Source: Bacteroidota bacterium (GTDB taxonomy: Bacteria > Bacteroidota > Bacteroidia > Flavobacteriales_D > Sanyastnellaceae). Taken from it: a stretch of 64,000 bases of DNA. Each line of letters begins with the position of its first letter. Within the stretch, counting starts at the first letter, position 1. Shown here piece after piece: positions 1,844-23,539 of this stretch. Made by a program: the position numbers and the translations under genes. The stretch lies in contig NVXE01000002.1 of the NCBI GenBank assembly GCA_002746975.1, positions 120,077 through 184,076 of the forward strand. Reading direction: 5' to 3'. Under the pieces are notes generated by a model that ran no database searches, was not told the origin of the DNA, and saw only the letters and a list, made by a program, of their open reading frames with translations.

Positions 1844-2275
1844 ATGAGCTTTCTGAGAAATATTGTAAGCGTAATAATTGGAATTGCCGTTGGGGGACTT
1901 GTGGTATTCCTTATTGAGAGAAGCGGACATGAAATGTTCTCTGTATACAGTAACGTTCCAGATATTGGTGAAAAAGAGGCCTTTTCAACTTTCGTGGGGA
2001 ATCTACCTATAAAAGCTTTCCTATTATTATTACTTGCGCATAGTTTAGGTACTGTAATTGCTGCATTTATCGCAACTTTATTGTCCGGTCTAAGTCGCCC
2101 CATTCCCGCCATTACTATTGGAGTACTGATGTTATCTGCTGGAGTTATCAATCTTATCTCCATTCCCCATCCTGTTTGGTACCAAATAAGTGAGATAATT
2201 CTTTACTTCCCCGCCGCACTATTAGGATATAAATTGTCTATTGAAACTCGCAGGAAGATTACCTCACTAAAGTAA
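1844..2275 (+). CDS. Small four-helix membrane protein, unknown function
   Basis: A 143-residue hydrophobic protein with about four predicted membrane segments, near residues 3-22, 50-72, 80-98 and 113-132. The ATG sits 1 nt after the icmF stop, so the two are very likely cotranscribed and translationally coupled. A longer reading from 1817 would overlap icmF and is not needed. The 3' end overlaps the convergent CotH gene by 17 nt. No family is recognised; small conserved membrane proteins of this shape are common in Flavobacteriales. Confidence 0.75.
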   Translation: MSFLRNIVSVIIGIAVGGLVVFLIERSGHEMFSVYSNVPDIGEKEAFSTFVGNLPIKAFLLLLLAHSLGTVIAAFIATLLSGLSRPIPAITIGVLMLSAGVINLISIPHPVWYQISEIILYFPAALLGYKLSIETRRKITSLK

Positions 2276-5200
2276 CACTACCTCGAAATATCGAAGAACT
2301 TAGGTCGTGTGATCCTAATGCAGTAATTGTGTACATGTAAACCCCATCTGGAACGAAATAATCACCTCCTTGAACAGAGTTTTGGCCTATCCATGGAATG
2401 GATGGGTCTGTGGTATCGAAAACTATTTCTCCCCATCTATTGATCACCGTGAACCTATAGCTATCAGCAGTAAATCCTTGACCTAACGGAAGGAAGTTAT
2501 CGTTTACTCCATCATTATCAGGAGTGAATGCATTGGGTATAAAAAGTCTAAAATCGATTTCCTTAAAAACTGCCGTTACGCTTTCGAAAGCAACTCCCTC
2601 AAGGTCCAGAGTCATTTCAGAATTAGTCGCATTAGGGAAAGGGGCCGTTTCCTGAACTTCCCATCTATCAAACTCCCATTGATCAAAGGCATTAGCCCTA
2701 AAAATCAAGGGGCTATCTAAGATCAGACCGCTTGTCCAATAATCATCAACGTAAGCAGTATTTACAACCGTTACTGAGCCAGCACCAGCTGGTTCTACCG
2801 TAACTTCAAGTTGAGTATGATCTATGTAAATAAAATGAGCCGTAACAGAACCCGCTTCTGAAACATTGAGGTTCACATTTGGCAAGTTCACATCTGTATC
2901 TATAACATTACCCGCTGAAGTTGAGCTCCAGTGAGAAAATTCCCACCATAGACCAAACCCCACAGCTTCTATAGAATGATTGCCCACACTTAGTGATTCA
3001 ATGGAAGGATATGTCGGGATTACTTCCCCGTCCAAAACTATACTACCAGCACCCTCTGGTTCTACGTTAAAAACAATATCTTCCGGAGGAGCTGGAATTC
3101 CGAAATGAGCAATAATGCTTAAATCTCCCTCTAAGTTTAAATCCCAATTAGGGTCTGTTTCGTCAATCAAAACCGCTGAGCCAGAAACAATTTCCCAGTA
3201 TAAAAATTGGTCACCATAATTCTCTTGAGCTTCTAGGTTTACTGTTATTTCCTCAAAATAACTACCCGAAAATGGAGTCGTCACCGGTGTTACATTAATG
3301 GTATTAATACCTACATCGCCTAGTCCCACAACAGAAACCTCTAAAGTCACAGCAGTAACGTCGTAGCAATCTTCCATCCCAGACATCAACTCAGATTCAC
3401 ATCTCTCATCTATAAAATCGCGGAGTTCTTGTAGTTCAGACTGCCAGCCAGCCACATCTCCTCCCCATCTTTCGCACTGTCTAGGCATTTCAGGCTCAAT
3501 AACAAGTACCATGCTATCAAGTACAGCATTCATGTAATCACATGTGAAATATGTGTTACCCAAGTCTGCCCATCTATTGATGTATGTTGAGTAAAATGTC
3601 TCATTATCCATTAACGCATTCAGTAAAGGAACATGCCCTTGACCGCCTACATTTCCTAAAGCTTCCGGATTACATGGATCAGCAGAAGATGTAGGATCCT
3701 GTACTCCCGTATAATTTATATAATGACCAAATGTAGCATCCATATCCCATAATGCATACCTCCATCTTTTAGCTGAACCTTCAGGATGTCTGCCCCTCCA
3801 CCATGCGGTATTCCAATTCAACCAATCTACACAAACTACGTAGCTATTTAAAATGAAATAGTCAATCAAACTTAACGGATTAAGTTGGCTTTCAACGTAG
3901 TCGTAATTAGCCGCTACAGTCATATCCTCGGTTGTAGCGAAATTAATGAGCGTGTACCAATCATCACCACTACCGTATTCCTCCCAAGTCCCCCCCCATG
4001 TTTTAAGGAAATCTACAAAATGTCTCGGTTGGTTATAATACTCTGTCGTGAAATCAACGTCATCGACTTTCTCACGGTACTCGTAAACTCCCCAATACTG
4101 ACCGTTGATATAAACAATGCAACTCTCACTTGTTCTTTCATCAAGGTGAAGGTCCGCCAAATGACTCAGTGTATGCACATAGGCATCGCGTATGTGAGCA
4201 CCTGGTTCGAATGGGTAATTATCATTAGCTGCCGCTTTGAAAATTAGTCTTTGATATTTATCGCGTTGTTTGACATGGAATAACTGAGCGTCTATGGCAT
4301 AGTCGTAACCCATTTGGTCTCTAGTAATATAATCAAACCCACGTTGACTATAGGCGTTAGAATCATTTCCATGCTCATTACTATCTCCTGTAGCTTCTAC
4401 TCTGAAAGTACCATTTGAATTGAAAAATTCTATATGAGTAGGATCATTTTCGCCGAATGGCCAAGCACCAGTTTCTAGATTATCTCCACTTATAGAAACT
4501 ACAGTAATTGTATGTAAATCTGCACCGGTGAAGTAGGTGTTAGTAGTAATAAAACTTGACGCTTCAACCCCAGTTGGGTCAATTGTAATAGCTCGAATCA
4601 CAGTTGTATTCGCAATATTTATCTCTCCTGAGTAGAGTGTACTTGAAGCAGTAGGTTCGTATCCGTCAGTAGTATACCTCACCTCATACCCTGGAGGAAC
4701 GGTTATTGCTAGGTTGAGTCCAGAAGTATAAAACCCAGCTTCATCACTGAACATAGGTGTTGGAGCATATGAACTGAACATCCCCATAACATTAGATGCT
4801 TCTGGTGAAGGTGTTGTGCAAATAGACCAAACTCCACTTCCGTCAACCTCTCGTGCCCAACTATGATTTGCTTGAGTTGTTGAAATTTCTGAAATGAATG
4901 TGTATTGCTCTAAAATGGAGCCTGTCTCATCACTGAATACAATCGATTCACCAGCACATTGATTAATTTTAAAATTCGTATTTAAATTCCCCCCTAAATA
5001 AAGGTTGAGTAGAAGCTCTCCTTCACCAGAACATATTACTAATAAATACCCTCCAGCAGGCACCATAGTCCCCGCTGGTATTTCGAACTTCGTGGGGTTG
5101 AGAGGGTTATCACTCAAGAAATACCCTCCAATATCTATTCCTACAGCATCTGGGTTGTAAAACTCAATGAAATCCTCATTATCTCCCCCTATGTTTAAGG

Positions 5201-5315
5201 AATAGTTCGAGCATGAAAACTCGTTAATTACTACTTGCGACTCAACTACTGTGCTAAATATTATTATCGATAGCACAAAAAGCGATAGCTGTTTTATCGA
5301 AACTCCTCTTAGCAT
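2259..5315 (-). CDS. CotH-kinase protein with lamin-tail domain and T9SS type B sorting domain
   Basis: A 1018-residue exported protein. Domains in order: signal peptide (1-26); lamin-tail domain (about 27-170); chitobiase C-terminal-like fold (about 183-262); CotH kinase domain (about 270-640); three InlB/Big-like beta repeats (about 655-920) with YWE and HW/RW signatures; and a CHU_C type B T9SS domain (about 925-1018) with PNAFTPDNDG and NRWGE. CotH proteins are atypical protein kinases in spore coats and fungi. The catalytic aspartates are visible in CVDW (D497) and WDMDATFG (D524, D526). The gene starts 2 nt after the lysyl oxidase stop, so the two form an operon. Expected location is the cell surface or medium. 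The substrate is unknown. Confidence 0.88.
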   Translation of the reverse strand: MLRGVSIKQLSLFVLSIIIFSTVVESQVVINEFSCSNYSLNIGGDNEDFIEFYNPDAVGIDIGGYFLSDNPLNPTKFEIPAGTMVPAGGYLLVICSGEGELLLNLYLGGNLNTNFKINQCAGESIVFSDETGSILEQYTFISEISTTQANHSWAREVDGSGVWSICTTPSPEASNVMGMFSSYAPTPMFSDEAGFYTSGLNLAITVPPGYEVRYTTDGYEPTASSTLYSGEINIANTTVIRAITIDPTGVEASSFITTNTYFTGADLHTITVVSISGDNLETGAWPFGENDPTHIEFFNSNGTFRVEATGDSNEHGNDSNAYSQRGFDYITRDQMGYDYAIDAQLFHVKQRDKYQRLIFKAAANDNYPFEPGAHIRDAYVHTLSHLADLHLDERTSESCIVYINGQYWGVYEYREKVDDVDFTTEYYNQPRHFVDFLKTWGGTWEEYGSGDDWYTLINFATTEDMTVAANYDYVESQLNPLSLIDYFILNSYVVCVDWLNWNTAWWRGRHPEGSAKRWRYALWDMDATFGHYINYTGVQDPTSSADPCNPEALGNVGGQGHVPLLNALMDNETFYSTYINRWADLGNTYFTCDYMNAVLDSMVLVIEPEMPRQCERWGGDVAGWQSELQELRDFIDERCESELMSGMEDCYDVTAVTLEVSVVGLGDVGINTINVTPVTTPFSGSYFEEITVNLEAQENYGDQFLYWEIVSGSAVLIDETDPNWDLNLEGDLSIIAHFGIPAPPEDIVFNVEPEGAGSIVLDGEVIPTYPSIESLSVGNHSIEAVGFGLWWEFSHWSSTSAGNVIDTDVNLPNVNLNVSEAGSVTAHFIYIDHTQLEVTVEPAGAGSVTVVNTAYVDDYWTSGLILDSPLIFRANAFDQWEFDRWEVQETAPFPNATNSEMTLDLEGVAFESVTAVFKEIDFRLFIPNAFTPDNDGVNDNFLPLGQGFTADSYRFTVINRWGEIVFDTTDPSIPWIGQNSVQGGDYFVPDGVYMYTITALGSHDLSSSIFRGSVTLVR

Positions 5316-5317
5316 AA

Positions 5318-7726
5318 TTACTGAATGTCAAAACGACCTGAAATAGGAGCTAATCTTACTCCAGAAATATTAAAGAAATATGCTCCTGAGCTCAACTGCC
5401 TTTTCTCAATTACGTGTTGAGTTCCTCTTACTAGCTCCGTTCTTACGACTCTTCCTCTAGAGTCTATTATCTGTAAGGTGAGATCGTCGCGCATAGGGTT
5501 AGGGAATGTTATAATCGCATTAGAGGAAATAGGGTTAGGAACCACCGTTACCTTAGCTTCGATATTATTCGCTAATTGTACGGCTCCCACACAACCCTGT
5601 ATTATTTCTGTAAGAGTGTTTTGGTATAAATCACTCACAACATCGATACAACTCAAAATACATACATCTTCCTCAACGCTCTGCCAATATAACCTTAGGA
5701 AAGGTGTCCACTCGTAAAACTTCATCATGCTCTCCCCCTCGTAACTTAACCCTATCACCTCTGCACCTCCTGGAACGAAAGAAGGAGTAATAGGATAGTT
5801 AACTACATCTGCAAGTGAAATGGCTTGAGAAATTTCAATACCGCTAAATTCTAATTGATACCCTACTACCCTATTATTAGGGTTGAGGATATGTATGTCT
5901 AAGTAGCCTTGCTCCCAATTAATGTCACCAATCTGAAAGTGAGTCGTATCGTAGATATTAATAATCTCATTTACCGGAAAGTTACATTTATCGTGAAAAC
6001 CAGAGCTGTCTGGATGAGTATGTGCTTCGTTCCAGTACTGGCAACGAGACATAAGTGCTGCATCAGAAACAGTAATCTCATCGTCTTGATCAATATCGGT
6101 GCAAGACGCGACATCTATATCGTTTCCCAGAATCCCCTCAACGTAAGACACTGCGTCGGTATATTCTTGTGCACCATTTAAGTCCAAATCTCCTATTAAA
6201 GCATCACCGTTACAATTTCCATTACAATCAAATGATGATTGACCGAAAAGTGTACCAGAACAATCATAAAACGGTTCGCAATCAGTGTAAACATTCACTT
6301 GCATGCTACCCATGCTCCTATCTATGTTTAAGCAAACAGAAGCGTAATTATTTGAATAATCTGTCTCTTCACGTCCCAAAGCATCTGGTATAAAATCCCA
6401 ATTTGCTCTCACGATCAAGAAGTAAGTGCCATCTGCTACATCAGTAACGTCTATCCATTGGCAAGAAAGACCGCTGCTATAAATATCACCGCAATGAGAT
6501 GAAATTCCCATATTACTACACCCATATTGTCCAGTCCCACCATCACTACACTCTAAATCCATTACGCAAAAGCCATTTTTAAAACCTATTGGGATATACG
6601 TACCATCTAATTCGAACAAGTCATATTTTGCATATCCCTTATGATGCCAGTGATTATGACAATCAGCAAACTCGAATTGAAAATTAGAATTTGAAGGCTG
6701 ACCTATGAAATAATCTAGATCTCCTATATTCTTAATATGAGTAGTAAACCTGATTAACTCACGACTTCCGTACCCATTAAGGCATCCCTCTCCGATATAG
6801 CAATCTGACTCAGAAACCTCCATAATATCTGTCTGAATGCTATTAACTATTGCCTGTTCTACTACTATTAGGTCAGGCCCTGTACAATCAGGGTCTCCTG
6901 GATAAATACAAGATCCATTATCAACCTCTGCTTGAGGATTGTAATTACAAGCTTCTATATCGGTACATCCTGCTGGAGGTCCCATAAATGTATGAACCCA
7001 ATCCCAATTTACCGTACAACCTTCTAAAGAGTACCAACGAATCCAATAAGTAACTCCCCCTTCTAAAAGCATTGTTTGGCTTGCTTCCTCACCACAACCA
7101 CCTTGATTATCATCGTAATAAATTGTACCAATGTTTGTGTCATCGAAGTTGCTCATATTGCAGTATTCATATACATATAGCTTCGTGTCACATCCTGTGC
7201 CGCAACTACTGAAATTGTACATCCCGTTATTTGCTGGTGTAAATGTGTACCAAAAGTCATTCCCCACTTGTGTAATAACATCCCCCATTTCAGAAGGCTC
7301 AGTGAGCTCTACAGCATCGTTACATGTAGTTCCTGGTGAGCACTCGAACGAAACTGCATCACCGTAATTATAATTCCCCCCGGAAGCTATTTCTACTCCA
7401 TTAAAATAAATCCAGTACCCCCCTGGTTCGAAAATTCCATCTCCAAAAGAATCGAAGATTTCAAATTCAAAGCACGGCAACTCTTCAACTACTTCGACAC
7501 AGATAGTATCTCCAACAGAACTTCCTGAAGCGATTTCATTCCCAGCTACATTTAGGTTCCAACTGATTTCTTGAGGATATCCATCAGAAATAATTTCTAC
7601 TATTATTTCTGATTGTCCGTCGGGACATGACGATTGAGCTAAAAAAGAATTAGAAAAAGTAAAATAAATAATAACGAAAGCAAGTGCAAATGACGAGCTC
7701 TTCACAAGGCTTAGTAGATTTTTCAT
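5318..7726 (-). CDS. Secreted lysyl oxidase with dockerin-like module and T9SS type A tail
   Basis: An 802-residue protein predicted to oxidise peptidyl lysine to allysine with copper and a lysine tyrosylquinone cofactor. It has a signal peptide ending LAQ (about residue 31), a beta domain rich in CF/GDG motifs, one Cys-bracketed ACNYN...NGSC repeat (about 254-273), and a lysyl oxidase domain (about 285-470). That domain has copper histidines in CHNHWHH (357, 359, 361). K383 (KNGFC) and Y416 (6 before CQWIDVTDV) match human Lys320 and Tyr355; DYSNN also matches. Then follow a dockerin-like EF-hand pair (about 507-562), a beta domain and a type A sorting domain from about 725. ATG 7726 is preferred over the TTG at 7744. 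First gene of an operon with the CotH kinase. Confidence 0.92.
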   Translation of the reverse strand: MKNLLSLVKSSSFALAFVIIYFTFSNSFLAQSSCPDGQSEIIVEIISDGYPQEISWNLNVAGNEIASGSSVGDTICVEVVEELPCFEFEIFDSFGDGIFEPGGYWIYFNGVEIASGGNYNYGDAVSFECSPGTTCNDAVELTEPSEMGDVITQVGNDFWYTFTPANNGMYNFSSCGTGCDTKLYVYEYCNMSNFDDTNIGTIYYDDNQGGCGEEASQTMLLEGGVTYWIRWYSLEGCTVNWDWVHTFMGPPAGCTDIEACNYNPQAEVDNGSCIYPGDPDCTGPDLIVVEQAIVNSIQTDIMEVSESDCYIGEGCLNGYGSRELIRFTTHIKNIGDLDYFIGQPSNSNFQFEFADCHNHWHHKGYAKYDLFELDGTYIPIGFKNGFCVMDLECSDGGTGQYGCSNMGISSHCGDIYSSGLSCQWIDVTDVADGTYFLIVRANWDFIPDALGREETDYSNNYASVCLNIDRSMGSMQVNVYTDCEPFYDCSGTLFGQSSFDCNGNCNGDALIGDLDLNGAQEYTDAVSYVEGILGNDIDVASCTDIDQDDEITVSDAALMSRCQYWNEAHTHPDSSGFHDKCNFPVNEIINIYDTTHFQIGDINWEQGYLDIHILNPNNRVVGYQLEFSGIEISQAISLADVVNYPITPSFVPGGAEVIGLSYEGESMMKFYEWTPFLRLYWQSVEEDVCILSCIDVVSDLYQNTLTEIIQGCVGAVQLANNIEAKVTVVPNPISSNAIITFPNPMRDDLTLQIIDSRGRVVRTELVRGTQHVIEKRQLSSGAYFFNISGVRLAPISGRFDIQ

Positions 7727-7789
7727 TAATAGTGTAGGTTTCAATTACAGGCAACAATTTGCAAAATACACTATTTTACTTAATTACGC

Positions 7790-9231: not shown

Positions 9232-11409
9232 TTATTTTACTGAGTCTATAATAGTCATCTCATCTACGAGATGGCTAGCTCCCGCATATTTATCAATAAT
9301 CCAAAGTACGTAGCGTATATCTACCATAATGTTTCGACATCTAGTTTCGTCGAAGAGTATGTCGCTCATAGTACTTTCCCATGACCTATCGAAATTAATT
9401 CCGACTAAGTAGCCGTCACCATTAATTACTGGGCTTCCTGAATTACCTCCTGTTGTATGATTACTTCCTGTAAAGCAAATGACAAGGTCGTTATTTGAAT
9501 CAGCATATCGTCCCCAATCAGCGTCCTCTAATTCAGCAACCAAATCTGAAGGTAGATCGAAATCGGCATCTCCAGGAATGTATTTTTGCAAAATTCCGCG
9601 CGCTGTTGTCAGCGGCTCGTATTTCATACCATCATGCGGAGATGATCCCTCTACCTTCCCATACGTTAATCGAAGTGTTGAATTAGCATCTATGGGAAAT
9701 AGACGTTCTGGAAATAGTTCACGTAAACCTCTTGTATAAGTCGCAGTTGCTTCCTCAATTGAGGCTACACCAGCTCTGTATCCTGGAGAAATTTTCTCGA
9801 AATAGTTTGATCTAAGTTCCATAACTAATTCATATGCAGGATCTTTTTTAAGCTTGGCAAATGATTTTTCTTTTCCTTTTTCCAGCAATATTGCTAACTC
9901 TTCTGGATTATCGAAAATAGAATTTTTAAAGAATGTCTCAGAATACTCATCTGCTGACCCTGCTTTATCAAACTTTACTTGAAGATCAGCTGGAGCAAGT
10001 TCCTGAGATACAAATCCCAAATATGATTCGACAAGCCCTCCTAGTAGATCTTCATCTACAGTTGCGTTATAATTCCTTGAATAATCCGAATTAACACCCT
10101 TGAGATATTCTATCGTTTCCTGTAATTTACCTGAAGATTCAAGAGAGCTCCAGTCTTCAATTAGGTCTGCAAATTCAAAAGCGTGAAGTAAAATATCAGG
10201 TCCATAATAAACAAGCTCTATAAATAAGGACCTCGATTCTAAGTATGGGAAATACTCTTCGTTCGCTTTTTGAATATCACTGATAGCACTTAAGTAACTC
10301 GGATCTGGGACTGGTGCTTCTTTTGCACGAGATAGGAATTCAGATTCAAGATCTAGTTTTTTCTGAACAGCATGCAATTCTTTAAGGCCATCAGTTTGAC
10401 CTGCCCATTTCTTCCAAGCATTAGAGATACTACTCTGCTTTGATGCATATGCTATCCTTAGCTCATCACTAGAAGCTCTTGCTGCATTAATAGTAGCTAA
10501 ACTTATATCACGCATCGCTATTCTCATAGGGTTAAGTCTGTCTATTACATGACTTACCGCATCTGATGATAGGTATTGTTCTGTCCTTCCAGGAAATCCG
10601 AAAATCATTGTGAAATCACCTTCACTAACGCCATCGATTGAAACCGGGAAGTGATGTGCAGGCTTATATGGAACATTCATGTCACTGTACTCGGAAGGAG
10701 AGTTATCTGCAGATGCGTATATTCTAAATACACTAAAGTCTCCTGTATGTCTTGGCCAAAGCCAGTTATCTGTATCTCCTCCGAACTTACCTACCGCAGA
10801 AGGAGGCGCCCCTACAAGACGTACATCCAAGAAAGTTCGTTTAGTAATCAGAAAATGTTGATTTCCGAAATCAAATGAAACAACACCACCTGTTAAATCA
10901 GTACCTTCAGTAAATTCAGATAATATCTCTTCATAAAGTTGTTTCCGTGCATTCGCTAACTCCTCTCCTTCTAATCCTTCTAGAGCTTTAGACACACGCT
11001 CAGTAACGTCGTGAATTCTTTCAATAAACGTTGCTGTAAGGCCTGGGTTAGGTAATTCCTCATCACGGCTCATAGCCCAAAAACCATTTTTCAGATAATC
11101 ATTTTCAACGGAACTATGATATTGAATTTGACTATATCCACAATGATGATTAGTTAAAAGAAGTCCTTCCGAACTGACCATCTCAGCTGTGCAACCGCCA
11201 CCGAAATGAACAACGGCATCCTTCAAACTGCTGTGATTTACGCTGTAAATATCCTCAGCACTAAGTCGAAGCCCCATTGATTGCATATCACCCTCAAGTG
11301 CATTTAGAAGTGTGGGAATCCACATACCTTCCTTAGCATTTGCTGTATTTAAACCAAAAATAACTAGTCCCATAAATAATAGGGATGTACTTCTAAAAAT
11401 AAAGTTCAT
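9232..11409 (-). CDS. dpp11: S46 dipeptidyl-peptidase, DPP11-type (Asp/Glu-specific)
   Basis: A 725-residue periplasmic serine peptidase that removes dipeptides from peptide N-termini. It has a signal peptide (1-25). The catalytic His lies in TNHHCGY (about residue 89) and the catalytic Ser is S657 in GGNSGSPV. Arginine 675 in NFDRSW lies 18 residues after the serine, matching the Arg that gives Porphyromonas DPP11 its acidic P1 preference; DPP7 has Gly there. No T9SS tail, as expected for a periplasmic enzyme. The upstream T9SS protein gene ends 10 nt before this start, so they are probably cotranscribed. The role is likely amino-acid supply from peptides. Confidence 0.92.
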   Translation of the reverse strand: MNFIFRSTSLLFMGLVIFGLNTANAKEGMWIPTLLNALEGDMQSMGLRLSAEDIYSVNHSSLKDAVVHFGGGCTAEMVSSEGLLLTNHHCGYSQIQYHSSVENDYLKNGFWAMSRDEELPNPGLTATFIERIHDVTERVSKALEGLEGEELANARKQLYEEILSEFTEGTDLTGGVVSFDFGNQHFLITKRTFLDVRLVGAPPSAVGKFGGDTDNWLWPRHTGDFSVFRIYASADNSPSEYSDMNVPYKPAHHFPVSIDGVSEGDFTMIFGFPGRTEQYLSSDAVSHVIDRLNPMRIAMRDISLATINAARASSDELRIAYASKQSSISNAWKKWAGQTDGLKELHAVQKKLDLESEFLSRAKEAPVPDPSYLSAISDIQKANEEYFPYLESRSLFIELVYYGPDILLHAFEFADLIEDWSSLESSGKLQETIEYLKGVNSDYSRNYNATVDEDLLGGLVESYLGFVSQELAPADLQVKFDKAGSADEYSETFFKNSIFDNPEELAILLEKGKEKSFAKLKKDPAYELVMELRSNYFEKISPGYRAGVASIEEATATYTRGLRELFPERLFPIDANSTLRLTYGKVEGSSPHDGMKYEPLTTARGILQKYIPGDADFDLPSDLVAELEDADWGRYADSNNDLVICFTGSNHTTGGNSGSPVINGDGYLVGINFDRSWESTMSDILFDETRCRNIMVDIRYVLWIIDKYAGASHLVDEMTIIDSVK

Positions 11410-11419
11410 AAAACTGTGT

Positions 11420-13300
11420 TTATTGTATTACAGCACGAGAATTCCAAAGGCTAATTCCTTTTTCGTCAACTATTTCGACAAAATAGACCCCTGACTTCAA
11501 ATCAGAAGCTTCAAAATAAGTGAGAGGTGAAATAGAAAACTCCTTAACAATTCTACCTCTTCCATCTCGTACAATGCACTTGCTATTCTCTCCAACTCCA
11601 TCAAGGTGTAAAACGGACGATTTAGAAAATGGATTCGGAGAAATATTCCAGTCACTTCTATTTTCAACATTTGAAATAGAAAGTCCACAATTTATGATAG
11701 TTATAACAACTGCATCAGTTACTTCACAACCGAAAAAGTTTGTTACAGTTACTCCTACTACTGAAGTTGTAGATACACCCTGATCAGTTTCTAATATATA
11801 AAATTGACCTGTTGACCCATCCATCCACTCATAGCTGTAATTACCTATAGGACCATATAAAATTTCTGTTTCTCCAGAGCACATTTCAAAATCCCCGCCT
11901 AAATCAAATGGCATTATGCCTAAAAATTCGACTTCTACATCCGTGTTTTCTACACAGCCATTCGCATCAACTACCTGTACGTAGTAAAACCCAGGAGATG
12001 CTGAATATATATCCTCAGAAAGCCAAGTCTCTCCATCAGGTCCATCCCACATAACATCAACATCTCCTGTTCCTCCATAGATTGTCAAGTCAATATCACC
12101 TGCGTTCTCGATGTCACACGAAGTAGTCACTTGGACGTCCAGTTCTAGTTGGTCTGGATTAATAATTGTGAACGATTCATTTAGGACATCTCCTGAACAT
12201 ACAGATGCTACTGAAACATTATAGGTTCCTGGCAACAGCCCCGTAATAGACATTCCTGACCCCGTATATCCAAATGGACCAGTCCAATTAGCTTCCCAAT
12301 CCAGACCACCATTATTAACGTAAACAGAAATAGAACCGTCGGGATTAAAGTCAGTTTCTAGTGCACATGAAATATTTTGGACTGTAGCTGCAACCTCGAT
12401 ATTACTGTATGAAACTTCCACATCAACCTCAACTTGCCCTACTGCACCATACCATCCATCTATTTGAATATATACTTCTGAACCAATAGGCACACAAGAG
12501 ATGAAGCAAGTACTAGCGTAGTAAGCACCTAATTCACAATACGCATCATCATTAGCTCCTTTAAGAGAGTAAGTGTCCCAATTTCCACAATCATCTACAA
12601 CCCATGCCGCTATTTGAGAATCGAAATCTGTACCCGAGTTACAAGCATTAATTTTATACACTACATCCTCGTCAGCGATAAATTTAGCCCAAACAGTATT
12701 TGTAGCACCTGATTCACACCATCCTCCAGGGATATTGCATCCTAATGTGGGAGGGTGTATTTCGAAAAACTCAGCCGTAGCACCAACGTTTGAGAGTAAG
12801 ATTGGAGTCCCGTCTGTTAATATTTCAGCGGCATCACAAGGGCTATCGTGATCGATCAACATGTTTGAAGCCACGTCTATAGTCCAAGTTTCACCATTTC
12901 CACTACCCTCTAGATAAGCTGCAGAAAATCCATTGATAATAACTCTGAAATTTGTGCCTCCATCACCCCATGAATCTACATGAATTAAATCAACTTGTGA
13001 ATCACTTGTTAAACATATCATGTCAGAAATAAAAACATCATTAGAATTGTATACAAATCCATCTGAAGCACCACCACCGATATAATCACACCCTACATCC
13101 ATGTTTCCTCCACTAAGCAAAACGGGAGCTTCGCCACACATTTGGCCTTGAGGCACGAGTTCCCAATACACCTCCTCACCCCAATTATCTGTTTCTATAA
13201 CTACTTGGACGGAATAATCACCGATAGGACATTGTGCTAATAAAACATTACCTACAACTAGTGTCATTGCGAAAATAACGATTGATTTCAATTTATGCAT
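11420..13300 (-). CDS. T9SS type A secreted protein with SprB-like repeats
   Basis: A 626-residue exported protein with a signal peptide (about 1-23, ending LLAQ). The N-terminal beta domain contains WGEEVYWEL and DSWGDGG and resembles modules in the lysyl oxidase and the M43 protease of this window. A DUF-like Cys-rich region comes next. Two SprB-type repeats follow, with signatures such as GLLPGTYNVSV and GFYYVQVVDANGC. The type A sorting domain (ISPNPF to the end) is C-terminal. Start 13300 (MHKLK) is preferred over 13327: it gives a standard signal peptide and lies 5 nt after a TATATTG. No enzyme domain seen; an adhesin or surface protein is plausible. Confidence 0.82.
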   Translation of the reverse strand: MHKLKSIVIFAMTLVVGNVLLAQCPIGDYSVQVVIETDNWGEEVYWELVPQGQMCGEAPVLLSGGNMDVGCDYIGGGASDGFVYNSNDVFISDMICLTSDSQVDLIHVDSWGDGGTNFRVIINGFSAAYLEGSGNGETWTIDVASNMLIDHDSPCDAAEILTDGTPILLSNVGATAEFFEIHPPTLGCNIPGGWCESGATNTVWAKFIADEDVVYKINACNSGTDFDSQIAAWVVDDCGNWDTYSLKGANDDAYCELGAYYASTCFISCVPIGSEVYIQIDGWYGAVGQVEVDVEVSYSNIEVAATVQNISCALETDFNPDGSISVYVNNGGLDWEANWTGPFGYTGSGMSITGLLPGTYNVSVASVCSGDVLNESFTIINPDQLELDVQVTTSCDIENAGDIDLTIYGGTGDVDVMWDGPDGETWLSEDIYSASPGFYYVQVVDANGCVENTDVEVEFLGIMPFDLGGDFEMCSGETEILYGPIGNYSYEWMDGSTGQFYILETDQGVSTTSVVGVTVTNFFGCEVTDAVVITIINCGLSISNVENRSDWNISPNPFSKSSVLHLDGVGENSKCIVRDGRGRIVKEFSISPLTYFEASDLKSGVYFVEIVDEKGISLWNSRAVIQ

Positions 13301-13332
13301 GTGTGCAATATACTTATGAGAACTCATATAGC

Positions 13333-13340
13333 GACCTTTG
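13333..13340 (+). promoter_or_regulatory. Promoter octamer GACCTTTG upstream of yaaA
   Basis: Differs from TACCTTTG at the first base and lies 5 nt before the ATG at 13346. It supports the short YaaA start and suggests a leaderless or near-leaderless transcript. Confidence 0.5.
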
Positions 13341-13345
13341 TCGTT

Positions 13346-14140
13346 ATGCTTATCTTATTCTCTCCAGCAAAAACTCTTGATCTAAATGTTAAATTTCCTG
13401 AGGATTATGTGACTTTGCCGCTATTCAATAGTGAAAGCACTTATCTAATGTCCTTACTTCAGTCTTTTAGTGATAATGAATTAGGCCAAACCATGAAGTT
13501 GTCTAACAAGATGATAAATACCGTTTCTGGCTGGCATAAAAAATGGGGGACATACAAAGACACTGATTCTGCCATTAAAGACTGCGCATTACCGTGTGCC
13601 TTCGCTATGAAAGGTGAAGCTTATAAATCACTAAATATAAAAGACTTTAACGACAAGGAGCTAAATTTTGCTCAACGCCATTTAATAATCTTAAGTGGGC
13701 TATATGGGATTTTAAGACCATTTGACCTAATAAAACCATATAGACTAGAAATGGGACAAACAATGGGTCTAGATAATAACTTTGCTTCACTTAATGCCTA
13801 CTGGAGTTCATTATTTAAAAAGCCCATTAAACAGAAATTGAAAGAGATAGATGCTAATATTATTTTAAACTTAGCTAGTGACGAGTATAGTAAAGTTGTA
13901 ACAAGGTCTTCAGTAGATTCGCGAATGGTTACTTGTTCATTTAAAGAAGAAACATCGAATGGTGTAAAGTCTATTAGTACTTTTGCAAAACAAGCTCGAG
14001 GTGAGATGGCAAGGTTCGTAATTCAGAAGGAAATTAAAGAAATTGAAAAATTGAAGGATTTTAACAGACTAGGTTACAAGATTAATCACGACCTTTCGAC
14101 GCTGAATCATATAATTTTCACAAGATTAACAAAACAATAA
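13346..14140 (+). CDS. yaaA: Peroxide stress protein YaaA (DUF328)
   Basis: A 264-residue cytosolic protein of the YaaA/DUF328 family. In E. coli it limits oxidative DNA damage during peroxide stress by lowering free intracellular iron, and it has a DNA-binding fold. The family N-terminus LILFSPAKTL begins exactly at the ATG 13346, so the longer frame from 13295 is rejected. Family motifs LSGLYGILRPFDLIKPYRLEMG and LASDEYSK are present. Length is normal for the family. It ends 8 nt before the FKBP lipoprotein gene, so the two may be cotranscribed. Confidence 0.93.
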   Translation: MLILFSPAKTLDLNVKFPEDYVTLPLFNSESTYLMSLLQSFSDNELGQTMKLSNKMINTVSGWHKKWGTYKDTDSAIKDCALPCAFAMKGEAYKSLNIKDFNDKELNFAQRHLIILSGLYGILRPFDLIKPYRLEMGQTMGLDNNFASLNAYWSSLFKKPIKQKLKEIDANIILNLASDEYSKVVTRSSVDSRMVTCSFKEETSNGVKSISTFAKQARGEMARFVIQKEIKEIEKLKDFNRLGYKINHDLSTLNHIIFTRLTKQ

Positions 14141-20668: not shown

Positions 20669-23539
20669 TTATAGGTTTATACAAGATTCACCATATGCAA
20701 TTAAGAACTCAAGTAAATCGGCAGAACCAATCTGTCCATCTCCATTAGCGTCAAAAGGACAAGGACCTCCTGTGCAAACAGAGCACGAACCGTCATCCAA
20801 ATTAGCAAATGCCACATAGTTATCAGCTGTAGGATCAGTACATCCAGAGAATATGCAACTACCATCTTCCGCTGTATTAGCTGCATTATAGTTATCTGCT
20901 CCTGGGTATGTACAACCTGTTGCAGAACAAGAACCGTCATCTACGGTAGCATCAGGATTAAAGTTGTCTGCGAAAGGATTTGTACATCCTAATATGATAC
21001 AAGAACCATCGTCAATTGTAGCGGTAGGGTCGTAGTTATCAGCTATTGAGTTAGTACAGCCCGAACAGCTACTACTATCTCCACCACAAACGCCACATCC
21101 ATCAACAACAGTACACGAACCATTGTCATCTGTAGCTGCTATATCATAATTACAAGCAGTCATGTCAGTACATCCCAAAACTTCTAACTCATCACAAATT
21201 CCATCGCCATCTGTATCGTTGATACAGCCAGTGCAAGTGTAAAACTGTGCTGGGTATGAACAAGAACCGTTATCGAATGTAGCGTTAGGATCATAGTTAC
21301 ATGCAGTGATGTCTTGACAACCGGCTACTCCTGCTGGGAAAGTTAGAGCCATACCTTCAGCATAGTGACTTACTTGAACAGAATCTCGAATTTGAATGTT
21401 TACTAAGGCCGAAACTTGACCCGAAGTAGTAAATTGACCTAAAAGAACTCTACTAGCAACGGGATTTCCTTGAGAATTTGCTCCTGGAACGACAAAAATG
21501 GATCCTCCAATAAAGGTATTTACAATAAAGTCACCTCCTGAATTAAAATCTGTTAATGACGTTAGAGCTGCATCGAAAGCACTATTTAATCCATCGGCAT
21601 CACCTGGTTGAGCACCAATCGTGAACCAACTATCAAATTCAAGGCTAGGGAATGCTGCAAAGAATAATGGATTAACTCCACCTCCAAAGTCACCACCTAC
21701 TGCATCGTTGTAAAAACCATCATTAGCTGTAGTTAACATCTCCCATGGGGTTGTATCTGTTCCGTATACAGCTGTAACTTCAACGTTATTTGATACTAAA
21801 TCAGCATATAATCTGTAGGTAGTTTGACCTGTTCCAATAGGGTCAGCTGAGACAATTTCGTAAGACAAGCCTAGACATAGACCATCACCCCAAGAACAAG
21901 AACCATCATCAAAAAGCGCAGTTGGATCATAATTTTCGGCATCAGGGTTCATACATCCACTGCAAGAAGTTCCATCACCTCCACAAATACCACAAGCATC
22001 ATTTGTAACACAAGAGCCATCGTCCAATATAGCTAACGAATCATAATTACATGCAGTAATATCTGTACAACCTCCACATGTAGAGTTATCACCACCACAA
22101 ATGCCACATCCATCATTTTGAAGACATGAGCCATCATCAATAGTTGCCGTTGAATCGTAGTTACAAGCAGTAGCGTCTGTACACCCACTACACGTGGAAC
22201 CATTACCACCACAAACTCCACAAACATCGTTTTGCAAACAAGAACCATTATCTAAAACAGCTGCTGGATCAAAGTTACATGCTGTAATATCAGTACAACC
22301 CACCCCAACTTGAGGAAATGATAATGAAACTCCTTCAGCATATAAACTTGTCTGAGAGGCGTCACGAAATTGAATATTTACAAGAGCATCAACTAATCCA
22401 GAAGTGGTAAACTGTCCTATAAGTACTCGCCCATTAACTGGGACACCTTGTGTATTAGCTCCCGGGACTACGAATATTGAACCACCTATAAAAGTATCAA
22501 CGATAAAATCTCCGCCGCTATTAAAATCAGCCATTGAAGTCAGAGCAATATCAAACGCATTGTTCAAACCATCAGGATCTCCAGGTTGAGCTCCAATAGT
22601 AAACCAGCTATCAAATTCCAAGTTAGGAAATGCTGCAAAAAACAATGGGTTTACTGAACCACCGAAATCAGCTCCTACTGGGTCGTTATAGAAACCGTCA
22701 ACTGCATCACTTGTCATGTGCCAAGGTGTAGTATCAGTTCCGTAAACTGCTGTCACTTCAACGTTAGGTGAAGAGAAGTCTGCGTATAAACGATACGTGT
22801 TTTGGCCTGTACCCATAGGGTCCGTTGCGACAATATCGTACGACAGACCAGTTAATAGTCCGCCTCCATATGTACAAGAACCATCGTCTTCAGTAGCTGC
22901 TGCATTATAATTGTCAGCTGTTGGATTTGTACATCCAGGAACTGCAACGAATGGGAAAGAAATAGAAATTCCTTCAGCATTACTAGTGTTGGAGTTTACA
23001 TCGTCCCATTGGAAATTCATAGTCATATTGACCACACCATCTGTTGTTATTTGGGCTATAAGCACACGACCATCAGCACCAGCAACAGCATCTGTTGAGA
23101 CACCTGGAATAAGGAAGAATGAGCCGCCGACAAATGCATTTAGATTAAATCCCGTTCCTGCTTCAAATGAAGCAAAAGCAGCATCCATTCCTACTTGCTG
23201 TATATCGCTGGTTCCGTTAGAATCTGCAGAACCAATAGTAAACCAACTATCAAACTCAAGACTTGGGAAAGCGGCAAAGAATAATGGATTAATTGTATTA
23301 CCTAACGCTCCACCTACTGCGTCTTGATAAAATGATGTTGTTACATCGACTACCATAGGCGATGTCTCAAGCGCATAAACTGCAACTAGTTCATCTGTAG
23401 GACTATCGAATGTTGCATACACTCTATATACTGTTCCGTATGGAGATTGGGCAAAAACCTCACTTTCGAGGCCGACAAAGTTGGCTTGCGCTAAGCCAGT
23501 AGTTAGAATTGCAATTGCAAGTAGTAAGTAATGTTTCAT
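20669..23539 (-). CDS. Large secreted repeat protein: three beta domains, eleven Cys repeats, dockerin-like tail
   Basis: A 956-residue exported protein (signal peptide 1-19). Three copies of a roughly 180-residue domain (about 20-200, 228-410, 555-738) share NPLFFAAFPSLEFDSWFTIG-type cores; copies 2 and 3 are much closer to each other than to copy 1. Eleven copies of a 20-residue Cys-bracketed repeat (C-x-[DN]-x-x-A-[CDE]-N-[YF]-...-DGSC) fill the spaces, some alternating with a CGVCGG-type linker. A calcium-type loop DTDGDGICD and a C-terminal dockerin-like DANGDGQIGSADLLEFL end it. No T9SS tail recognised. Likely a surface or extracellular protein; function unknown. Confidence 0.85.
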   Translation of the reverse strand: MKHYLLLAIAILTTGLAQANFVGLESEVFAQSPYGTVYRVYATFDSPTDELVAVYALETSPMVVDVTTSFYQDAVGGALGNTINPLFFAAFPSLEFDSWFTIGSADSNGTSDIQQVGMDAAFASFEAGTGFNLNAFVGGSFFLIPGVSTDAVAGADGRVLIAQITTDGVVNMTMNFQWDDVNSNTSNAEGISISFPFVAVPGCTNPTADNYNAAATEDDGSCTYGGGLLTGLSYDIVATDPMGTGQNTYRLYADFSSPNVEVTAVYGTDTTPWHMTSDAVDGFYNDPVGADFGGSVNPLFFAAFPNLEFDSWFTIGAQPGDPDGLNNAFDIALTSMADFNSGGDFIVDTFIGGSIFVVPGANTQGVPVNGRVLIGQFTTSGLVDALVNIQFRDASQTSLYAEGVSLSFPQVGVGCTDITACNFDPAAVLDNGSCLQNDVCGVCGGNGSTCSGCTDATACNYDSTATIDDGSCLQNDGCGICGGDNSTCGGCTDITACNYDSLAILDDGSCVTNDACGICGGDGTSCSGCMNPDAENYDPTALFDDGSCSWGDGLCLGLSYEIVSADPIGTGQTTYRLYADLVSNNVEVTAVYGTDTTPWEMLTTANDGFYNDAVGGDFGGGVNPLFFAAFPSLEFDSWFTIGAQPGDADGLNSAFDAALTSLTDFNSGGDFIVNTFIGGSIFVVPGANSQGNPVASRVLLGQFTTSGQVSALVNIQIRDSVQVSHYAEGMALTFPAGVAGCQDITACNYDPNATFDNGSCSYPAQFYTCTGCINDTDGDGICDELEVLGCTDMTACNYDIAATDDNGSCTVVDGCGVCGGDSSSCSGCTNSIADNYDPTATIDDGSCIILGCTNPFADNFNPDATVDDGSCSATGCTYPGADNYNAANTAEDGSCIFSGCTDPTADNYVAFANLDDGSCSVCTGGPCPFDANGDGQIGSADLLEFLIAYGESCINL
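21326..21877 (-). repeat. Long protein-coding repeat, copy 3
   Basis: Encodes residues about 555-738 of the repeat protein. It is the closest match to copy 2 and carries the same AVYGTDTTPW, FYNDAVGGDFGGG and GGDFIVNTFIGGSIFVVPG segments. Confidence 0.7.
22310..22858 (-). repeat. Long protein-coding repeat, copy 2
   Basis: Encodes residues about 228-410. Most positions are identical to copy 3, implying recent internal duplication. Confidence 0.7.
22940..23482 (-). repeat. Long protein-coding repeat, copy 1 (divergent)
   Basis: Encodes residues about 20-200. It keeps NPLFFAAFPSLEFDSWFTIG but differs elsewhere, so it is older than the copy 2/3 duplication. Confidence 0.6.

Follow-up and report, generated by a model that had tools for sequence, protein, structure and literature searches.

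Among described systems, the closest to the locus reported here are human LOXL2/LOX (PF01186), the lysyl oxidase (LOX) of Haloterrigena turkmenica, the LOX homologues of Bacteroidetes, and CotH of Bacillus subtilis with CotB/CotG. Bacteroidetes LOX proteins already figure in Grau-Bove et al. 2015 (PMC4448552); the accessible portion of that paper describes conserved active-site residues, as found here, and simple architectures in all prokaryotic LOX except three, and it mentions neither CotH nor T9SS. The Haloterrigena protein shares with ours a prokaryotic LOX domain and was expressed and found to be an active amine oxidase in vitro, whereas it is archaeal and cryptic in its host, and the available text of its description mentions no T9SS or CotH partner (PMC6452851). 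Thus, the sequence-only reading of this DNA was right that bacterial and archaeal LOX homologues exist, although calling them uncharacterised was too strong. According to PMC7821199, CotH and Fam20C are distant relatives, and the catalytic and metal-binding aspartates of the B. subtilis protein are D228 and D251. Our CotH belongs to the same Pfam family and presumably conserves this aspartate pair, and both genes are clustered with those of surface-layer partners.

The window, i.e., the whole stretch of 64,000 nucleotides that was analysed, originates from a family of mostly uncultured Flavobacteriales that is known largely through metagenomes. Its LOX gene lies on the minus strand at 5318..7726 (ATG at 7726, stop at 5318) and encodes a T9SS cargo protein of 802 aa; residue numbers below are counted from the TTG at 7744 with which the mechanical ORF opens (808 aa). 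The protein matched Pfam Lysyl_oxidase PF01186 with 109 bits (cut-off 20.4), and its AF2 model (pLDDT 84.8) contained the LOX catalytic fold at aa 287-493 (6266..6886, minus strand), superimposing on human LOXL2 (5ze3) with a Z of 21.1 and an rmsd of 2.4 over 195 aa at 32% identity. The HxHxH copper site (H363/H365/H367) and the LTQ residues K389 and Y422 align with their LOXL2 counterparts, the core cysteines are shared, and C428 of the CQW motif follows Y422 at +6, the same spacing as in LOXL2. The profile score and this alignment confirm the earlier description of a complete LOX with its copper histidine triad, LTQ Lys and Tyr, and six-residue spacing to CQW.

None of the five active-site residues varied among 40 full-length homologues, which came from Flavobacteriales, Saprospiraceae, Chitinophagales, and other groups, so that loss of the LTQ Lys or Tyr in most bacterial homologues, which would have spoken against the sequence-only reading, did not occur. 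Another family of the order (f9; L341-L354) has divergent LOX-like proteins of approximately 700-780 aa that match PF01186 only partially; by eye, they keep the HxHxH (HGHNH), the Lys of GAKxGFC, and the Tyr of DVY. Because of the residue-for-residue conservation and the fold match to LOXL2, the protein is predicted to bind copper, make its own LTQ, and oxidise peptidyl-lysine, or else other primary amines, on the cell surface or within a secreted matrix. That it is an active exported amine oxidase is very probable.

Outside the catalytic domain, the protein is unlike human LOXL2/LOX: no SRCR domains were found in it, and it instead carries PPC/CBD-like, dockerin-like, cohesin-like, and T9SS modules, all encoded on the minus strand. 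A PPC or collagenase CBD-like beta domain (aa 136-253, 6986..7339) precedes the catalytic domain and resembles the ColG CBD (VIA-align Z 12.3); a resemblance in fold does not by itself imply a ligand. Between the catalytic domain and a cohesin-like beta sandwich lies a dockerin-like EF-hand pair (aa 516-573, 6026..6199), in which the model places a helix after each of two DxDx[ND]-type loops; Pfam dockerin gave no match on the LOX protein. The sandwich itself (aa 595-726, 5567..5962) resembles type I cohesins with a Z of about 10.9 at 8-12% identity, and Pfam cohesin PF00963 gave no match across the genome. These modules would most likely dock LOX to itself or to other surface proteins. A T9SS type A sorting domain (aa 731-808, 5321..5554) follows, with a Z of 11.3 to the mirolase CTD.

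Related LOX proteins with other arrangements were also observed. The source genome encodes a second LOX of similar architecture (G000 C14:116905; L001/L033 8045-10381), in which a dockerin-like C-terminus replaces the T9SS tail, and in several genomes of genera g1 and g13 this paralogue adjoins a glucose/sorbosone dehydrogenase (GSDH) gene. Large LOX homologues of approximately 1100-2100 aa with PKD domains occur in g19, g4, and g2 (L068, L069, and L071, respectively) and carry Cu-binding_MopE (PF11617) motifs in up to 9 copies.

The gene for the second protein starts at an ATG at 5315, leaving 2 nt to the LOX stop at 5318 as the sequence-only reading had it, and ends at 2259 on the same strand (2259..5315, minus). 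It encodes a 1018-aa T9SS cargo protein in which Pfam recognises LTD, CHB_HEX_C/Fn3_assoc, CotH (349-639), an InlB-type repeat, and a CHU_C tail; these additional modules and the T9SS tail distinguish it from B. subtilis CotH. The CotH domain scored 110 bits against PF08757 (cut-off 23.8), covering profile positions 34-319 of 322. All 114 genomes of the family contained a relative at E<=1e-10, and most have a clear full-length orthologue. Searches of PDB sequences with the protein found no CotH structure, and its AF2 model, built from 7 sequences, was unusable (pLDDT 43.8).

As to whether this protein phosphorylates anything, D497 and D524 were invariant in 17 orthologues and aligned with invariant aspartates of divergent CotH paralogues, through which they are presumed to be the equivalents of the B. 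subtilis pair, with a spacing of 27 versus 23. The earlier claim that the kinase aspartates are kept therefore stands for the residues themselves, while their equivalence to the B. subtilis pair is a step made through the paralogues. The N-lobe looks divergent: the Pfam match begins only at profile position 34, an HGNDS..Q[RK]GF segment can be made out by eye, and the Lys of the KKS type is replaced by Arg in 13 of the 17 orthologues (Arg325 in the source genus). Bacillus CotH acts in spore-coat assembly inside the mother cell, with ATP at hand; for a protein exported to the surface, we know of no extracellular ATP source, and none is obvious. We thus regard an active kinase as doubtful. Delivery to a surface where no ATP is known, together with the divergent N-lobe and its Arg, would suit a kinase-fold adhesin or scaffold that positions LOX, and CotH proteins are surface ligands in Mucorales according to the available text of PMC12211043. 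Such a scaffold would be compatible with the reading preferred below, but D497 and D524, which presumably correspond to D228/D251 (PMC7821199), are invariant, which argues against it, and we consider it rather unlikely.

Both proteins carry T9SS tails, in agreement with the sequence-only reading: Por_Secre_tail PF18962 matched the LOX tail with 37 bits (cut-off 27), TIGR04183 also being reached, and CHU_C PF13585 matched the CotH tail with 45.7 bits (cut-off 27), whereas TIGR04131 remained at 21.7, below its cut-off of 35. The genome encodes SprA and has 73 matches to type A tails; passage of LOX and CotH through the outer membrane by T9SS can be inferred from these sequences. T9SS-type proteins in the window are lysine-poor (0.1-1.7% Lys, versus about 3-10% in most other ORFs), one 956-aa ORF at 20669-23539 having 0.1% Lys. 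Pooled T9SS cargo contained 1.5-4.0% Lys in 10 LOX-positive and 1.0-4.9% in 9 LOX-negative genomes, most genomes contributing <10 cargoes; within one genus, the values were 1.9% in a genome without LOX (G044) and 1.5-1.8% in two with it (G020 and G034). Lysine avoidance as a sign of selection by a surface LOX was rejected, since lysine poverty is a general property and the ranges of LOX-positive and LOX-negative genomes overlap.

LOX was detected in 100 of the 114 family genomes, in 160 of 399 genomes sampled from the order (many of these matches being weak and partial), and in 4 of 392 genomes sampled from the phylum, including the source genome and another member of its family; a plasmid collection yielded one distant match only. 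LOX is a hallmark of this family and rare in the phylum. Adjacency in Flavobacteriales, on which the proposed pairing depends, was found: by coordinates, LOX is followed by CotH in 43 genomes from five genera (12/14 in g1, 2/2 in g5, 20/22 in g7, 8/11 in g13, and 1/2 in g14), and those exceptions in g1 and g13 that were read were contig ends. In 24 loci read directly, some of which may derive from one genome included in two collections, the genes lay on the same strand with gaps of -41 to +43 nt as measured from mechanical starts, often overlapping. In g2, g3, and g9, 7-9 kb separates the two genes, which lie on opposite strands; in g12, g4, g8, g10, g16, and others, the genes occupy different contigs. 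In the tree, the CotH-linked LOX proteins fell inside one 45-row clade of the family; an adjacent paralogue clade, which includes the second LOX of the source genome, was never seen beside CotH. Conversely, CotH orthologues occur in genomes lacking LOX that are 99%, 98%, and 96% complete (G044, G074, and G122, respectively), and other Bacteroidia have full-length LOX of the same architecture without a CotH neighbour.

Since synteny in several genera extends to the surrounding block, comprising YaaA, a T9SS protein, the S46 peptidase, and methylmalonyl-CoA mutase, the adjacency alone is weaker evidence than it appears. This synteny, and the genera in which LOX and CotH are separate or found alone, would be expected if the two were unrelated T9SS cargoes kept together at a shared export locus by old gene order; however, the tandem stays tight and often overlapping across the five genera while its flanks change, and the CotH at the locus is the only one found in its genome, making such a fortuitous association unlikely in our view. 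The tandem persists although its downstream genes vary by genus (EamA; sulfotransferase plus aminotransferase; convergent genes). In g13 (L059, L061, and L063), an EamA transporter gene lies 3' of CotH; in g7 (L064, L065, and L066), a sulfotransferase gene does, followed in L064 by an aminotransferase IV gene.

The gene upstream of the pair, retained there across genera, encodes a Dpp7-like S46 peptidase (9232..11409, minus; PF10459, 714 bits). Its position directly upstream in several genera would fit nutrient scavenging, in which LOX at the surface would obtain nitrogen and carbon by deaminating extracellular amines and lysyl peptides, with S46 working alongside and CotH being incidental. 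The full-length LOX proteins elsewhere without a CotH neighbour are in keeping with this, as is the relaxed specificity of the archaeal HTU-LOX, including taurine and cadaverine, for which the accessible part of the report proposes a nitrogen supply (PMC6452851). Nevertheless, the docking-type modules and T9SS export of our LOX fit a structural role better. Dpp7-type enzymes are periplasmic and the S46 protein has no T9SS tail, so LOX and S46 are probably in different compartments, and we hold scavenging to be an improbable main function. Further along the window, a 635-aa T9SS protein is encoded at 11420-13327. A YaaA-type peroxide-stress gene of the block (13295-14140) accompanies the predicted peroxide-producing oxidase, which may be coincidence. 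It would nonetheless fit a weapon in which the useful LOX product is H2O2 directed against competitors; YaaA is widespread, divergently placed, and outside the operon, and with no other support this idea is very improbable.

We tentatively prefer to read the locus as an exported protein-modification pair, comprising a LOX amine oxidase and an ancillary CotH surface protein, to which we give slightly less than even weight. From adjacent genes, both proteins would be sent across the outer membrane by T9SS; aldehydes produced by LOX could then cross-link, and CotH would most likely belong to the same assembly as an ancillary surface protein that acts either on a partner, by phosphorylating it before or during export, or as a kinase-fold binding scaffold. 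The participation of CotH is the weakest step, an extracellular kinase being hampered by the divergent N-lobe and the lack of a known ATP supply outside. That LOX and CotH serve the same process seems moderately probable; that LOX cross-links a self-made surface protein is a possibility to which we lean less than halfway. An extracellular modification module, as proposed by the sequence-only reading, is accordingly supported in part: it is favoured by the complete LOX site, the T9SS tails, SprA, and the tight co-directional pair in five genera, and disfavoured by the occurrence of each gene alone, the divergent CotH N-lobe, and the ATP question.

A search of the source genome for collagen-repeat proteins (PF01391) found none, a further difference from the human system, and a collagen-type substrate for LOX was dismissed on this basis. 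A more far-reaching analogy may be drawn with Fam20C and LOX in the animal extracellular matrix, since each pair would bring together the phosphorylation and the lysyl oxidation of exported proteins; it is an analogy only, the kinase role and the shared substrate being putative here. A full bacterial counterpart of matrix maturation, in which LOX cross-links proteins, a CotH/Fam20C-related kinase phosphorylates the same proteins, and cohesin-dockerin-type contacts assemble the complex, appears quite improbable.

Literature searches, with subscription titles mostly outside their reach, found no paper on LOX together with bacterial CotH, in line with the earlier remark that the combination was unfamiliar, and none in the relevant sense on LOX and T9SS, where the sole match was a cancer review dealing with P. 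gingivalis. To the extent that this could be checked, three things are new: the presence of LOX throughout the family, the modular T9SS architecture of this LOX, and its tandem with CotH in five genera. In this family LOX, closely related to the copper enzyme responsible for cross-linking collagen in animals, is nearly universal, equipped for export, and furnished with docking-type modules. In five genera, moreover, a second homologue of a modifying enzyme, related to CotH, follows it in operon order, and the role of bacterial lysyl oxidases thereby becomes a matter for a defined experiment. If the pair does act on a shared matrix protein, this family would have LOX-type cross-linking outside animals together with a kinase-family partner.
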